Source: Glaciozyma antarctica PI12
Taxonomy: Eukaryota > Basidiomycota > Microbotryomycetes > Kriegeriales > Camptobasidiaceae
DNA length: 64,000 bases
Direction: 5' to 3'
NCBI GenBank assembly: GCA_002917775.1
Contig: KZ627161.1
Location: 2,161,205-2,225,204, forward strand
Below the pieces are notes generated by a model. The model worked only from the letters and a program-made list of their open reading frames with translations. It was not told the DNA's origin and made no database searches. The position numbers were made by a program, and so were the translations under genes. Positions 1 through 63,979 of this stretch are shown in pieces. Position 1 is the stretch's first letter; each line of letters starts with the position of its first letter.

Positions 1-1801
1 CGCTCAAATCCCAACTCCGCGGACTTTGGTTTGCTCTACCCACGCCCAGCGCGTGCTTTTCTTTCCCAGAATTCGGCTCTGAAGACGGCATAATGTCAAA
101 GGGAAGAGCCTCACCACCAGGCGCACATACGCCCGCCCAGGTGTGAGAGGAGGGTCTTCCGCAATAAAAGAAGGGACATTCGAAAGCCCTGGGTAACTGG
201 GAAGGATGTGTTGAGAGCAGGTGGCCCGCAACATCAAGACGGGGGTCAAGAGGGTCTCTCCCCGCCACAAGAGCTCCTCCTGAAGCAGTTACCACAACTG
301 CCTGCTTTGAGTAGGCAACCGTAACTAGACTGTCTTGCAAGATGTTTCAGCCTGCACTTCCTAGGACAAGCTCGGCGCTCTTTGCTCCCACTCAGCAGTT
401 CCACCTTTCTCAGTTGTTGCAGCAAAACGCCTACAGATTACTCTTTCCTATCACCCTGAAGAGGTAGATGTAGGCTTTCGTAAACCTTCGGCCTGGGGGT
501 AGAGGGTCTGCCTCTTCCAAGGATCACAGGAGAAGTCGTAGGGAGATAGCGAGGTGGGCCGAGGCCGAACTTGCAAGGTTATTAGCTCTCTCAGAGTCAT
601 AGTCAAACAGGCGGAAGAACGTGAGAAACACCTCCCCTGTCCTTCCCCAGCGGAGAAAGAAGATGTCAGCGCCACACGGATAATGTTTGCATTAGATGTC
701 AAGCAACGCACGCAGAACTGCCCCAAGAAAAGCGACCGGGTCTACCGTCTTGCTGGCCTCGCTCCTCCCCACCTCACTTAATATTTCGAGGCTATAAACC
801 TGAGCACATACTGCCTCTGAACTGGTTTCTGGAAGCCGAAGCCTTCAAAGTCACCCTCCGTAACCATCGGCAGCATTAATTCGAGACTGAGTGCCTCAAT
901 CTTGCTGTCCCCGTTCCTCACTAATGTTCACAGGTTGCTTTGGAGGGCGTGGTAGCAGGAGTAGGAGATTCGGGAGCGAGCGCAGGAGTAGGAGCTCTGG
1001 GGGAGGGCATACGAGCAGGAACTTTGGGCGAAAGGAGGAGGATCTCTCAACACGAGGGAATGGTCGTCGACGGTGGAGCGAACTGGGTATTGGCCCAGCA
1101 CAATTTGGGAGAAAGTTGCGATTGGGTACTTTGAGCAGCATGCTGAAAAACAGACGAGGAAGCAGCGAGAGCGAGCAGGCAGTCACAGGGACCTTCCAGC
1201 ACACAATGTCGCAGCTCAGCTGAGTAGAGATAATGACGAGAACCCTGCGCTATTTAGCAGTACTTCTCATTCTTCGAAACGCTTCTCACCCGGCTCTGCT
1301 GCTGCAAACGGCGAGCTGCCATCCGCACTCCGCACTCCGCACTCCGCACTCCGGCCAGCAGGAGCAGTTCTCGAGCAGAATCAGCCCAGATTTCAGACCC
1401 TCCATCATTCCCACCCCCGCTCCCAGATCTTCCGTCCTGATCAGCAGCGGAAACAAAGAACTGGAGGCCTGCGGTCCGCCGACGGTGGAGAGAGGACTGA
1501 ACGAGCGGGGAGGTGTTTTTGGACGCCGTCTTCGCGCGTGGATAAGCACGCAGAGTTTCTGAAATGGTAGCGCAAAGGAAAGAGGCCCACAAGCAGACAC
1601 GAGTTGAGGCGGAGTCGGTGGAAGTGGTCAAAGGCACAACTCGCAACTCGCGCTCGAAGCTGTCGAGGTCCCTCCTCCTCCCCCACACCGCCCACCCAAG
1701 CGCTCTCCAGTACCCTCCCCTTCCTCCCTACCTCCGCCTCAGCTCAGCCCTACGCGCGAGCCGTCCCCTCCTCCCGCCTCCTCCCGCCCCGCTCCTCCTC
1801 G
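1..1801. other. Left-flank region without a recognisable gene
   Basis: Open frames exist on both strands, but none gives a coherent protein or a chain of exons joined by typical splice sites. They look like chance frames in GC-rich DNA. The last few hundred bases before LSM1 are C/T-rich on the plus strand, as expected for a promoter and 5' leader. A short GCACTCC tandem array lies near 1325. Nothing else was recognised. Confidence 0.5.
1325..1352. repeat. Four tandem copies of a 7-bp unit
   Basis: The heptamer GCACTCC is repeated four times without interruption. It lies about 450 bp upstream of the LSM1 start codon. No function can be read from it; it is most likely a slippage microsatellite. 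Confidence 0.85.
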
Positions 1802-55822: not shown

Positions 55823-58800
55823 ATGGCCCCATCCCTTACGCCCACTCCCATCAACCACAACAAAGCAGTTTCGTTCGACGATGAATCCCGCCGTCATCAG
55901 CATGGAGGCGTAATCGACCCTCCCCTCGACGGCGACGACCGTCTTCCTCACGCTCCCTCGGTCCTCCGTGATGAGGCGTTCCTTGGACTCGTGAGTCTCT
56001 TTCTCTGAAGGACGAGGGGACGAGTGGGAGCGCTCTCGAGCTAACCGACTCCTCGACAGCCCGCCGCGCAGGGACTTTACGACCCGGAGAACGAGAAGGA
56101 TTCTTGCGGTGTCGGATTCGTATGCCAGTGCGTTCCTCCTTGAGATCCTTTGAAATCATGAAGCTGATCAGGACACCACAGCATCAAGGGTCAGCCCTCT
56201 CACAAGATCGTTTCGGACGCGCGCAACCTCCTTTGCAACGCAAGTTCTGTTCTCCCTGAGTTATGCGCCCCAGCTAACGCTTCGCTCTACAGATGGTAAA
56301 TCCGTTTCGAGTAACGCTGCGATGAGGCGACGAAGCTAACCTTGGCCGATCCGCAGACGCATCGAGGAGCTACCGGAGCCGACTCTCGTGGGTCCCTCCC
56401 ATCCCCGCCTTTTCTAATCGAGATAGCTAATCTCAACCACCCAGGCGACGGAGATGGAGCAGGAGTCATGGTCGGTATCCCCCACGCCTTCTTCGTTCGC
56501 GAGTCGGAGCGCGAGCTGGACGTCAAGCTTCCCAGCGAGGGCGAGTACGCCGTCGGAAACGTCTTCTTCAAAAAGGGCAACGCCGACCTCCTCGTCTCGC
56601 ACAAGGCGACCTTCGAGCAGATCGCCGAGTCGCTCAACCTTCGCGTTCTCGGATGGCGCGAGGTCCCTACGGACGGCTCGATCCTCGGTCCTGCCGCCCT
56701 CTCCCGCGAGCCTCACATCCTCCAGCCCGTCGTCGTTCTCGCCACCTCGTACGGACATGGCAAGGTCCCCGACCCCGACGCCACTTTCGACGAAAAGTAC
56801 TTTGAGCGCCAGCTTTACGTCCTCCGCAAGCACGCCACCCACACCCTCCTCCTCTCGAGCGGATTCTACATCTGTTCGCTCTCCAACAAGAACATCGTCT
56901 ACAAGGGACAGCTCTCGCCCATTCAGGTCTACAACTACTACCACGACCTGTGCGTTCCTCCATTCTGAAGCTTTTCTCTCCCGAGCTGACCTTTGGACTC
57001 ATCGCCCGCAGCAACCACGTCCTCTTCGCCTCCCACTTCTGCCTCGTCCACTCGCGCTTCTCGACCAACACGTTCCCCTCGTGGGATCGCGCTCAGCCGA
57101 TGCGATGGGCCGCGCACAACGGCGAGATCAACACCGTTCGCGGCAACAAGAACTGGATGCGTGCGCGCGAGGGCAACCTCCAGTCGTCTCGCTTCGCCGA
57201 CGAGCTCGACCTCCTCTACCCGATCATCGAGACAGGCGGATCCGACTCGGCCGCGTTCGATAACGTCCTCGAGCTCCTCACCGTCAACTCGGTCGTCACC
57301 CTCCCCGAGGCCGTCATGATGCTCATCCCCGAGGCGTGGCAGAACAACACGGCGATGGAGAAGGAGAAGGTCGCGTTCTACCAATGGGCTGCATGCCTCA
57401 TGGAGCCGTGGGACGGTCCCGCCCTCTTCGCCTTCTCCGACGGAAGGTTCTGCGGAGCCAACCTCGATCGAAACGGTCTTCGCCCCTGCCGCTGGATCAC
57501 CACGACGGACGACATCATGATCTGCGCCTCCGAGGTAGGCACGATCTACGTCGAGCCTGAGAAGGTGACGCGCAAGGGTCGTCTTCAGCCGGGCAAGATG
57601 CTTCTCGTCGATACGCTCGAAGGAAGGATCGTCGACGACAAGGAGCTCAAGATGAAGGCCGCTAGCAAGCAGCCATTCGCCAATTGGCTCGAGAGCCAGA
57701 TGCTTCGCCTTCCCAACATTATCGCCAAGGAGCGCGCGAAGGGAGTTCGTCTCACCGTCGAGCTTGACGATACGACCGTTTCGACCGACCCCAAGCTCCT
57801 CGCGTTCGGGTACACGTTCGAGCAGCTTGATTTGCTCCTTAGGCCTCTCGTCAACGGTGCGTTCTTCGTCTTTCGCTTTCGCGGTCGGAGCGCGAGCTGA
57901 CGAGGTCGTTCGTTCGCAGATGGGAAGGAAGCTCTTGGATCGATGGTGCGCTTGCGAGATTGACCCCCCTCGCGCGTTCGCCAGCTAACTTTGGATTCGC
58001 ACGCAGGGCAACGACGCTCCTCTCGCCTGCATGGCCACCGCCCCTCGCGTCATTTACGACTACTTCCGCCAGCTCTTCGCCCAAGTCACCAACCCTCCCA
58101 TCGACCCCATTCGCGAGTCGATCGTCATGTCGCTCGAGTGCTACGTCGGAGCCGAAGGCAACCTCCTCGAGATGAACGCCACGCAGTGCCACCGACTCCT
58201 CCTCACCTCTCCCGTCCTCTCGATCGAGGAGGTCAACGCCCTCAAGCGCCTTCACGAGGTACATGCCGATTGGCCCGCTAGGATCATCGACATCACGTTC
58301 GACAAGAGCGAGGGCGTCGTCGGGTACCAGAACGCGCTCGACCGCGTTTGCGCCGAGACGAGCCAGGCGATCGCGGAGAACATCAGGGTCATCATTCTCT
58401 CCGATAGGAATGTTGGAGTCGACCGCGTCGCGCTCAGTGCCCTCGTCGCGACGGGAGGAGTTCATCATCATCTTATTCGCAACAAGCAGCGGTCCAAGGT
58501 CGCGCTTATCATCGAGACGGGCGAGGCGAGGGAGGTCCACCACATTTGCGTCCTGCTCGGGTACGGAGCCGACGGTATTTGCCCGTACCTCTGCATCGAG
58601 GCTATGCTCAAGGTGCGTTTCGTTTAGCTCGTCGTCGGAGAGCGAGCGCTGACTTTCGATGCAGCTCCGCCGCGAGGGTCTTCTCAAGGTCGACCTCACC
58701 GAGGACCAGGTCATCGGGAACTACAAGTACGCGACCGACGGAGGTATCCTCAAGGTCATGTCCAAAATGGGCATCTCGACGCTCCAGTCCTACAAGGGAG

Positions 58801-61800
58801 CTCAGATCTTCGAGGCGCTCGGACTCGACAACTCGGTCATCGACCGCTGCTTCGTCGGTGCGTCCTTCCTCTTATTTCGTGAGCGCTGAGCGACCCGCTG
58901 ACGCCGTTTCGCGACGCAGGAACCGCGAGCAGGATCTCTGGAGCGACCTTCGAGCTCCTCGCCATCGACGCCCTCGAGATTCACGAGCGCGGCTACCCCT
59001 CCCGCGACACCGTCATCCCTCCCGGCCTTCCCGAGACGGGCGAGTACCACTGGCGCGACGGCGGAGAAGCTCACATCAACGACCCGACCGGTATCGCCAA
59101 CCTCCAGAACGCCGTGCGAGAGAAGAACCAGGAGTCGTACGATGCCTACTCGGAGAACGCGCGCAAGCAGGTTCGAGCGGTCACCCTGCGAGGATTGCTC
59201 GAGTTCGACTTTGAGAAGGCTCAGCCTATCCCGATCGAGCAGGTCGAGCCGTGGCACCAGATCGTGCACCGATTCGTTACTGGAGCCATGTCGTATGGAT
59301 CTATCTCGATGGAGTCGCACGCTGCGCTCGCTGTCGCCATGAACAGGATCGTGAGTCGTTTTCGTCCCTTGGAGAGGTTGCAGAGCGCTGACTCGTGGTG
59401 GCGATCGCAGGGCGGCAAGTCCAACACGGGAGAAGGAGGAGAGGACGCCGAGCGCTCCGATATTCTTCCCAACGGCGACACGATGCGTTCCGCCATCAAG
59501 CAAATCGCCTCTGGCCGTGAGTTCCTTTCGCCTTACGCCGTTCCGAGAGCAGCTACTGATATCGTCGTCCTCCTCAGGGTTCGGAGTCACGAGCAACTAT
59601 CTCGCCGACGCCGACGAGCTTCAGATCAAGATGGCTCAGGGCGCGAAGCCTGGCGAGGGAGGAGAGCTCCCTGGCCACAAAGTCTCTGCCTCGATCGCTC
59701 GTACTCGCCACTCGACTCCTGGAGTCGGACTCATCTCCCCTCCTCCTCACCACGACATCTACTCGATCGAGGATCTCAAGCAGCTCATCTACGATCTCAA
59801 GGTGCGTACACTTTGACCTTGCGTTTGCGCTTCGCTCATCACGTCTTGCAGTGCGCCAACCCTCGCGCTCGCATCTCCGTCAAGCTCGTCTCTGAAGTCG
59901 GCGTCGGAATCGTCGCGTCCGGAGTCGCCAAGGCCAAGGCCGACCACATCCTCATCTCGGGCCACGATGGAGGAACCGGAGCTTCGCGCTGGACCGGCAT
60001 CAAGTACGCCGGACTCCCCTGGGAGCTTGGACTCGCCGAGACGCACCAGACGCTCGTTCTCAACGACCTTCGAGGTCGAGTGACGCTTCAGACCGATGGA
60101 CAGATCAGGACCGGTCGAGATGTCGCTATTGCTTGCTTGCTTGGAGCTGAGGAGTGGGGATTCGCTACTACCCCTCTCATCGCCATGGGTTGCATCATGG
60201 TGCGTCGTCGCCGTCGTTTCGCTTTCCTTCGCAACCGCTGACTTTCTTCCCCGCTTTCGCAGATGAGGAAGTGCCACGTCCGTGTTCCCCGTTACTTCCC
60301 CTCTGCGCTATTGCTAACCTTCGTATTCGCTGTATAGCTCAACACCTGCCCCGTCGGAATCGCGACCCAGGACCCGTAAGCTCGCTCGCTACCTTCGCTC
60401 CTTCGCGCGGCTCCTGACCTCTCCTCCTCCCTCGCAGGACTCTCCGCGCCAAGTTCACCGGCCAGCCCGAGCACGTCATCAACTTCTTCTACTACGTCGC
60501 CGAGGAGCTCAGGACGTACATGGCCAAGCTCGGATTCCGCACCATCAACGAGATGGTCGGTCGCGCCGACCTCCTTCGCGTCGATGATACGCTTCGCAAC
60601 CCCAAGACGGCCAACCTCGACCTCTCGGCGCTCCTCAAGCCCGCTTGGCAGATGCGCCCCGGAGTCGCCACGTTCAAGAGTCGCGCGCAGGACCACAAGC
60701 TCTACATTCGCCTCGACAACAAGTTTATCGACGAGTCCGAGCCAGGTTCGTTTATTCCCTCTTCGTTCGCACGAGCAGGTTGCTAATGTTACTCTCGAAC
60801 AGCTCTCCTCAATGGTCTTCCCGTTCGAATCGAGTGTGAGGTCGTCAACACCGAGTAAGTTCGACTTCTGCTCTCGCACCTGGAGAGCTTTGCTGACCCG
60901 CCGCTCCCGCACAGTCGCGCTCTCGGAACGACCCTCTCCAACCACGTCTCGAAGCGCTACGGCGAGGAGGGACTTCCCAAGGACACGATCCACATCAGCG
61001 CGACGGGATCGGCTGGTCAGTCTCTTGGCGCCTTCCTCGCTCCTGGAATCACCATCGAACTGTCCGGCGACGCCAACGATTACTGTGGGAAGGTACGTCG
61101 CGAGAGTGGAGAGGAGGAGAAGAGGACGTTGCTGAACTCATCGCGCAGGGACTTTCGGGAGGTCGCCTCATCGTGTACCCTCCCAAGGCGTCCACTTTCA
61201 AGGCCGAAGAGGTGTGTGGCTCTTTCCTATTCCCACGAACGGCGTTAACCATCGTTTCAGAACGTTATCGTCGGCAACGCCTGCCTCTACGGAGCCACGA
61301 GCGGCCAGGCGTACTTCCGAGGCATCGCCGCTGAGCGATTCGCCGTTCGCAACTCTGGAGCCGTCTCAGTCGTCGAGGGATGCGGAGATCACGGCTGCGA
61401 GTACATGACTGGAGGTCGCGTCGTCGTTCTCGGCACAACTGGTCGCAACTTCGCCGCCGGCATGAGTGGAGGAATCGCCTACGTTCTCGACTACGCCAAG
61501 GACTTCAGGTCCAAGGTCAACATCGAGATGGTCGAGCTCGACACCGTCAACGACCCTCACGAGATTGCTGAGCTTCGTTCGATGATCGAGGACCACCACC
61601 ACTGGACCGGTTCCGAGCGCGCTGGCCGCATCCTCAAGAACTTCAACCAGATCCTCCCTCGCATCGTCCGCGTCATGCCCCTCGACTACAAGCTCGTTCT
61701 CGAGGAGCAAGCCGCCAAGGCGATCGCCGACAAGAAGTCGAAGCAGAACGTCGTCGAGTTCGTTTCACCCAAGAACGTCGCTGCTCCCGTCGGCGGCAAG

Positions 61801-63979
61801 TCGGAGCCCGCCGTCGTCGATCTCGAGGACTCGATGGTCGACGAGGCGACTGCGAAGAAGCGCGTCGAGACGCTCGACAAGGTTCGCGGCTTCATGAAGT
61901 ACAAGCGCCTCGCCGAGTCGTACCGCAACCCTCGCAAGCGCGTCAAGGATTGGGCCGAGATCTCGAGTCGTCTCAGCGAGGATGACTGCAAGGTTCAGGC
62001 CGCGAGGTGCATGGATTGCGGAGTTCCCTTCTGCCAGTCCGACACCGGATGCCCTATCGGCAACATCATCGTGCGTCTCTCTCTTTCGCGTCTCTTTTGA
62101 CGGAGCTGACGAAGTGCGCTCGTCTCCAGCCCAAGTGGAACGACCTCGTCTTCAAGGGACAGTGGCAGGATGCTCTCAACAGGCTTCTCATGACGAATAA
62201 CTTCCCCGAATTTACAGGTTCGTCGTTCTCGCTGCCGGCTCGATTCGATTCTAACTCGTCGTTCTCGCGCAGGTCGTGTCTGCCCCGCTCCTTGCGAGGG
62301 AGCTTGCGTTCTCGGCATCAACGAGCAGCCCGTCGGTATCAAGTCGATCGAGTGTGCGTTCCTTGCCTTCCTCCTCACGGATTTAACTGACGCTTTCAAC
62401 TATCGCAGGCGCCATCAGTACGCTTTCGACCCTAGCTCGCTTTCGAATTCTCGCACTAACCCTCTCTTCGCAGTCGACAAGGGCTTCGAGATGGGATGGA
62501 TGAAGCCTCGTCCTCCTCAGCAGCGTACGGGCAAGAAGGTCGCCATCATCGGATCTGGACCTGCGGGTCTCGCCGCCGCCGACCAGCTCAACAAGGCCGG
62601 CCACAGCGTCACTGTTTACGAGCGGAACGACCGATGCGGAGGCCTGCTCACCTACGGTAGGTCACTCTTTCATTATCGCTGTGCACGCACTTACGCCCGC
62701 TTCTGTCGCAGGTATTCCGAACATGAAGCTCGACAAGCGCGTCGTTCAGCGTCGTCTCGATCTCATGAGCGAGGAGGGAGTCGAGCTCGTCACCAAGGCT
62801 CATGGTACGTTCCTTTTCGCGTTCTTCCATTCTGCAGGACGCTGATTCCCTCTCCTTCGCAGTCGGAGTCTCTCACGACGCCGCCGAGATCCGCAAGGAG
62901 AACGACGCCGTCATCGTCGCTACCGGAGCTACCTGGCCTCGCGACCTCAAGCTCCCCAACAGGAACCTCGACGGTATCCACTTTGCCATGGAGTTCCTTC
63001 GTATGTCGTCCTTCTCTTCGTTCTCGCCCTCTCACTGACTTATTTACGCTTTCAGAGCTCAACACGTCCTCGCTCCTCAACTCGAATCTCGAGGACGACA
63101 AGTACCTCTCGGCCAAGGGTCTCAACGTTATCGTCATCGGCGGAGGAGACACCGGAAACGACTGCATCGGTACCTCGATCCGCCACGGCGCAAAGAGCGT
63201 CACCAACTTCGAGCTCCTCCCCGCTCCTCCGGCGACGCGCGCGTCCGACAACCCTTGGCCTCAGTGGCCCAAGGTCTTCCGCGTTGACTGCAAGTCGTTT
63301 TTCTTCGCTCGTGCGAGCCGCTCACTAATTCCTACGTTCGCTCGCAGACGGTCACTCGGAGGTCGCCGCCTTCTTCGGCAAAGATCCCCGCGAGTACTCG
63401 ATCAACACCAAGGAGTTCGTCTCGGACGGCAACGGCAAGATCAAGGGAATCAACACGATCCGCGTCGCTTGGGAAAAGGACGCGCTCGGCAACTGGCGCA
63501 TGGCCGAGGTCCCTGGCAGCTTCTTCTTCTTCCCCGCCGATCTGTGCGTCCTCATTAGCTCGCTTCCCATCCTCAGCAACTGACTCTCCTTTCCGCTCAG
63601 CGTTCTCCTCGCTCTTGGATTCCTCGGTCCCGAAGAAGCGGCGGTCAAGGCCCTCGGCGTCGATCAGGACGGTCGCTCGAACGTCAAGACCCCTCAGGGC
63701 AAATTCACGACCAGCGTCGATGGCATCTTCGCCGCTGGTGACTGCCGCCGAGGCCAGTCCCTCATCGTCTGGGGTATCGCCGAAGGTCGTGGAGCCGCCG
63801 TCGAGGTCGATCGCTATCTCATGCACGACACTCGCCTCCCTTCCGCTGGATCGATCAAAGTCCGCAGGTACGTTCGCTCCCTCCTCTCCTGACGAGCCGA
63901 GCTGATGGCCTTCTTCTCTGCTCGCAGCTTCGTCCCCGCGACTCAGCACCACCACGCCGAGGTCGCCACGACCGCCTAA
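55823..63979 (+). CDS. GLT1: NADH-dependent glutamate synthase (GOGAT), single-chain fungal type
   Basis: The enzyme makes two glutamates from glutamine and 2-oxoglutarate with NADH. The mature N-terminal nucleophile Cys is in [10 protein letters not shown], after a propeptide of about 70 residues. The glutamine amidotransferase domain follows ([20 protein letters not shown]), then the central domain. The FMN domain includes [15 protein letters not shown] and [20 protein letters not shown], with 3Fe-4S ligands in [19 protein letters not shown]. The GXGXG helix comes next ([17 protein letters not shown]). The fused small subunit has 4Fe-4S ligands ([32 protein letters not shown]), an FAD site ([17 protein letters not shown]) and an NADH site ([15 protein letters not shown]). 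About 25 introns are present, with exons of 3, 9 and 15 nt. All domains appear intact; length is about 2,150 residues. Confidence 0.96.

Follow-up and report, generated by a model that had tools for sequence, protein, structure and literature searches.

A predicted 3-nt microexon after a GC-AG intron in the glutamate synthase gene of Glaciozyma antarctica PI12

Several genes are known to contain exons of only a few bases, and those considered here are given as far as the accessible parts of the reports describe them. In Fusarium, CYP621A has a constitutive exon of 1 nt, documented with RNA reads and 20 orthologs (PMC12940212). Another constitutive 1-nt exon was found in Arabidopsis APC11 and tested in vivo with constructs, and Guo and Liu proposed that it depends on intron definition and stepwise intron removal (PMC4674806). 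Among basidiomycetous yeasts, bglA of Hamamotoa singularis and of Rhodotorula minuta contains microexons, with introns close to 60 bp and a GC-AG intron next to microexons; the shortest exons are 18 and 6 bp in Hamamotoa singularis / Rhodotorula minuta and 5 bp in Sirobasidium magnum (PMC9142197). The P450 genes of Phanerochaete chrysosporium also have microexons between small introns, and the shortest is 6 bp (PMC1184071).

In the GLT1 gene of Glaciozyma antarctica PI12, one exon (exon 4) is predicted to consist of a single ATG codon. Like the exon of CYP621A, it is an ultra-short fungal exon in a conserved motif of a catalytic domain, it is flanked by short introns, and it was deduced from the conservation of the motif, the CYP621A exon having been missed by automatic models; whereas that exon is 1 nt long and comes with reads and 20 orthologs in the accessible text, the GLT1 exon is 3 nt long and predicted from sequence (PMC12940212). 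With APC11 it shares the ultra-short length and the proposed mechanism, although the exon of this plant gene is 1 nt long and construct-tested (PMC4674806). An exon of Drosophila homothorax is also 3 bp, but according to the accessible part of that report it results from donor choice and is alternatively spliced from a longer exon (PMC7392893), and no longer exon form was predicted in GLT1. The combination of a GC-AG intron and a microexon resembles bglA of the basidiomycetous yeasts, with 3 nt against 5-18 bp in the available description (PMC9142197). The basidiomycete microexons and small introns resemble those of the Phanerochaete P450 genes, where the shortest exon in the accessible text is 6 bp rather than 3 nt (PMC1184071). 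Exon 4 is shorter than the basidiomycete examples compared (5, 6 and 18 bp, as given in the accessible portions of those papers). The preliminary description of this locus had placed 3 nt near the lower limit of what spliceosomes were known to define, which is contradicted by the constitutive 1-nt exons that the available texts report for APC11 (PMC4674806) and CYP621A (PMC12940212). Exon 4 is an extreme example of an established kind and not a record. No report of a microexon in GLT1 was found in the open-licence literature on fungal or basidiomycete microexons and GC-AG introns. With this exon, a fungal housekeeping enzyme would join the few genes in which a catalytic motif depends on an exon only some bases long.

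The window, i.e., the whole stretch of 64,000 nucleotides that was analysed, is part of contig 16 (G000:C16:2161205-2225204) of a genome of 19.98 Mb in 18 contigs, and GLT1 occupies its final 8 kb on the forward strand. In our hand model the gene is complete, with 31 exons, 30 introns and 2138 amino acids, and without internal stops. The introns are 49-69 nt long (n = 30), with 28 GT donors and two GC donors, both of which read GCAAGT, and with 29 CAG acceptors and one TAG. The shortest exons are 3, 9, 15 and 26 nt (Table 1). The N-terminal domain matched Pfam GATase_2 (PF00310) with 582.1 bits, and the CGVGF motif places the catalytic cysteine at Cys72. Among the best 120 of 7997 scored homologs, the fungal proteins showed full-length similarity with 71-85% identity, the top one being a protein of Microbotryum saponariae (85%). 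A class-II glutamine amidotransferase domain in which the cysteine is residue 1 of the mature enzyme, together with full-length similarity to fungal GLT1, was taken to define the class; both were found in the translated model, and the gene is predicted to encode glutamate synthase (NADH-GOGAT, GLT1).

Table 1. Features of the GLT1 gene (positions in the window) and short exons predicted in neighboring genes (positions in the respective locus, L).
Feature	Position	Strand	Basis
GLT1 coding region (NADH-GOGAT), ATG to TAA	55823..63979	+	hand model
Exon 3, ends DARNLLCN	56182..56239	+	hand model, splice enumeration
Intron 3, 53 nt, GC-AG, donor AAC+GCAAGT	56240..56292	+	held-out score 11.4 bits
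Branch-point motif GCTAAC of intron 3	56273..56278	+	motif
Exon 4, predicted 3-nt microexon ATG, Met99	56293..56295	+	unique solution; ab initio; residue conserved
Intron 4, 61 nt, GT-AG, donor ATG+GTAAAT	56296..56356	+	held-out score 12.3 bits
Branch-point motif GCTAAC of intron 4	56335..56340	+	motif
Exon 5, with HRGA block	56357..56387	+	hand model, splice enumeration
Exon 8, 26 nt	57920..57945	+	hand model
Exon 15, 15-nt microexon, MRKCH (before NTCP)	60263..60277	+	hand model
Exon 24, 9-nt microexon GCGCCATCA, CAI of SIECAIID	62409..62417	+	hand model
Intron 28, 58 nt, second GC-AG, donor ACT+GCAAGT	63290..63347	+	hand model, intron scoring
6-nt exon GAAAGA, Ca2+-transporting ATPase gene, GK of VEEGKSIF	L004:5477-5482	+	homology
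11-nt exon, NUDT12-like NADH pyrophosphatase gene, GRQ-KAW-P	L006:7653-7663	-	ungapped alignment there
14-nt exon, helicase-like gene, most of Walker A motif PTGSGKT	L020:6956-6969	+	ab initio
Three predicted exons (15, 10 and 18 nt), short-chain dehydrogenase-like gene	L008:95-109, 419-428, 619-636	+	ab initio

The order of the junctions around exon 4 is TTTGCAAC / GCAAGT...CCAGCTAACGCTTCGCTCTACAG / ATG / GTAAAT...GAAGCTAACCTTGGCCGATCCGCAG / ACGCATCGAGGAGC. Introns 3 and 4 are each equipped with a separate set of signals (donor, GCTAAC branch-point motif, CAG acceptor), and the conserved protein reading across exons 3-5 is LLCN-M-THRGA. In intron 3 the donor GCAAGT retains the consensus at +3 to +6 and is accompanied by GCTAAC and CAG, as in a U2-type GC-AG intron. 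Exon 4 as predicted belongs to the class of microexons (3-15 nt), since it is an internal exon of 3 nt with a complete intron on either side, and it is needed for the conserved protein as judged from the enumeration, the Pfam score and the homologs described below. In a stwintron (nested twin intron), a splice signal of one intron is split by a second intron and no sequence remains between the two, whereas here every splice signal is intact in both introns and one codon remains. At a recursive splice site the acceptor directly abuts the donor (AG|GT) and no exon is left; the AG-ATG-GT arrangement, with three bases between the sites, ruled this out as well. A stretch of 401 bases had one match only in the genome, and megablast of 1001 bases against phages gave no match.

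To enumerate the possible splicing patterns, GT or GC donors were combined with AG acceptors, allowing no more than one internal exon and requiring introns of at least 30 nt. Ninety-nine in-frame solutions reached HRGATGADS, 36 of which kept NLLCN, and a single one yielded N-[M/L]-T, namely the two introns and the ATG listed in Table 1. These are exactly the boundaries and donors (GCAAGT and GTAAAT) of the preliminary description, and its claim that the conserved motif can only be read with the ATG as an exon of its own was borne out. The 117 nt between exons 3 and 5 contain one AG-NNN-G[T/C] site, which is identical to the proposed site of exon 4. When scored with the introns held out, introns 3 and 4 fell within the range of the other 28 introns (7.8-24.0 bits); the donor of intron 3, which has GC and follows a C as last exon base, had 3.9 bits and was among the weakest of the gene. 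After dinucleotide shuffling of the inner sequence (20,000 replicates, donor hexamer and last 26 nt fixed), any AG-NNN-G[TC] at a permitted length was found in 5859 replicates, but both introns reached at least 11 bits in none.

A semi-Markov gene finder with terms for codons, donors, branch points, acceptors and lengths was run with introns 3 and 4 held out. It recovered all 30 introns of the hand model without any extra ones at four intron penalties, and forbidding intron 3 or intron 4 cost 10.6-16.6 bits at these penalties. Exon 4 was recovered in 24 of 24 settings, which included GC-donor priors of 2%, 0.5% and 0.1%; in half of the settings, training was only on the gene after 58000 and the second GC intron was held out too. 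As the training data came from the same gene, this is an independent test of introns 3 and 4 and not of the whole model. Together with the held-out scores, the enumeration, the shuffles and the homologs, these results agree with the preliminary description that a 3-nt exon after a GC-AG intron is the best reading.

The residue encoded by exon 4 is conserved. The HRGA.G motif was present in 119 of the 120 listed homologs (the best 120 of 7997 scored), the exception being P0076, and the residue two positions before it was Met in 115 and Leu in four; it was absent from none of the 119. The distance from CG.G to HRGA was 29 in 114 of the 115 listed homologs in which it was measurable, and also in the Glaciozyma protein; the exception, P0115 (22), is a model that lacks seven residues nearby. 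In the P0087 model, part of the stretch from the catalytic Cys to LLC is missing. Three other models, P0088, P0090 and P0094, start at the Met. Such starts would be expected if an old intron lay directly upstream of it, but truncation from some other cause is just as likely. Five distinct PDB sequences of bacterial glutamate synthase have L, V or M at the place of Met99 without a gap. Deleting the Met lowered the Pfam GATase_2 score to 572 bits (by about 10). With the catalytic Cys72 taken as residue 1, Met99 becomes residue 28 and Arg102 residue 31; this Arg and the following Gly presumably line the glutamine site of the Azospirillum enzyme.

These observations point to ATG as a coding exon of GLT1 that is very probably included constitutively. 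The spliceosome would recognise each of the 49-69 nt introns across the intron itself (intron definition), so that the length of an exon would hardly matter, and the tiny exon would be tolerated since recognition works on each short intron as a whole. Only 3 nt separate the acceptor of intron 3 from the donor of intron 4, which faces it; the two sites could presumably not be engaged simultaneously, and introns 3 and 4 would for this reason be removed one after the other. The case lends support to the idea that exon size has no practical minimum where introns are short. When intron 3 or intron 4 was left in the translation, a stop codon followed after no more than about 20 codons; loss of exon 4 would go unnoticed, removing a single residue three positions ahead of the active-site Arg102.

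It is very improbable that the ATG is simply skipped within a single GC-AG intron of 117 nt (56240-56356), giving LLCN-THRGA. Such a transcript would preserve the reading frame and lose nothing but the Met, as the preliminary description had anticipated, and it ranked second among the ab initio parses when the intron penalty was -6 to -10. However, the intron would be 117 nt long among 30 model introns of 49-69 nt, it scored 4.1 bits, and the overall parse was 10.6-16.6 bits worse; no listed homolog with the motif shows the loss of the residue, and a complete acceptor and donor around a needed codon would be left unexplained. A role of the assembly is less probable still, and it seems exceedingly unlikely that a sequencing or assembly error created the structure, e.g., that a true GT donor was read as GC. 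A corrected donor would only turn GC into GT and the 3-nt exon would still be required, a second GCAAGT intron is present in GLT1 (intron 28), and the single match of the 401-base stretch in the genome also argues against an error.

Both forms might instead be made, with the glutaminase site modified by regulated inclusion of the 3-nt exon. With a length divisible by three, the exon could be skipped at the cost of one residue and without a frameshift, and the GC donor of intron 3 is weak. Precedents exist in the accessible parts of two reports, which describe a regulated microexon in a fungus, the 20-nt exon of Trichoderma Xlr2 (PMC11121469), and the alternatively spliced 3-bp exon of Drosophila hth (PMC7392893). 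We nevertheless consider regulation of this kind very unlikely, because failure of a weak donor in a gene with short introns should lead to retention of intron 3, and so to a stop, rather than to skipping of the exon. Only a slight chance is given to its possible product, a full-length glutamate synthase without Met99 in which the glutaminase site would be disturbed and the rest intact; it would use ammonia or be inactive, and would be invisible to nonsense-mediated decay.

In a tree of 24 GLT1 proteins, the Glaciozyma protein was placed in a group of 17 Microbotryomycetes (support 100/100). The preliminary description had pointed to the Sporidiobolales for comparison, an order that the tree does not support: the protein lies outside the 13-member clade of Sporobolomyces, Rhodotorula and Rhodosporidiobolus (support 100/100), and would fall somewhere among Microbotryum, Pseudohyphozyma and strain JL221. 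The automated models of all 16 Microbotryomycetes listed among the best 120 of 7997 are intact at the Met. Four of these 16 proteins (P0001, P0011, P0012 and P0015) lack conserved residues at the equivalent of the 15-nt exon, which is a caution for annotation; the losses around CIMMRKCHLNTCP probably reflect tiny exons that were missed there. These four public models come from Microbotryum saponariae and from three species of Rhodotorula. Since the 16 automated models are intact at the Met, though such models break at tiny exons, the relatives perhaps have no 3-nt exon, which hints, weakly, that one of introns 3 and 4 may be a recent gain. The intact models of the relatives do not count against exon 4 in this gene.

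The association of a GC-AG intron with microexons is not peculiar to exon 4, as GLT1 contains another GCAAGT intron along with microexons of 9 and 15 nt. Intron 28 splits the Tyr codon of DYGH, a motif present in most of the near relatives compared. A strict pattern detected the motif of exon 15 in 102 of the 120 homologs listed, the other 18 having mostly substitutions or damaged models, and that of exon 24 in 113 of 120.

To survey the region, ab initio models, which are unverified, were made without codon cost for 264 kb (200 kb around the locus plus the window; 11,280 N). They comprised 97 genes with 455 introns, of which 15 (3.3%) were GC introns, a count influenced by the GC prior of 2%. 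Thirteen of the 362 internal exons in these unverified models were at most 15 nt long, in nine genes, and only one was of 3 nt. With a codon cost of 0.1, there were 78 models, 411 introns and 14 GC introns, and the short-exon counts were unchanged. A stricter cost left 23 genes with 171 introns (five GC), too narrow a set to be used; a gene finder self-trained on the 264 kb diverged to eight giant "genes" with 968 introns, and its counts were discarded. GC introns in the survey were not enriched next to internal exons of at most 15 nt (1/15 versus 25/440 for GT introns, p = 0.59), and the corresponding values were 2/15 versus 38/440 (p = 0.63) for at most 21 nt and 3/15 versus 51/440 (p = 0.40) for at most 30 nt. 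One oxidoreductase-like model contains a predicted exon of 1 nt (joined index 99448, L011), which is probably a model error; its flanking introns have 13.1 and a weak 6.6 bits. With several microexons, the genome would be a handy test bed for how the spliceosome deals with two introns whose facing sites are mutually exclusive. Among the short exons of other genes (Table 1), the 14-nt exon of the helicase-like gene had a weak PDB match (E = 0.00096), and the joined protein of the Ca2+-ATPase gene aligned without gaps to calcium-transporting ATPase type 2C member 1. The model of the NUDT12-like gene has two GC-AG introns as well.
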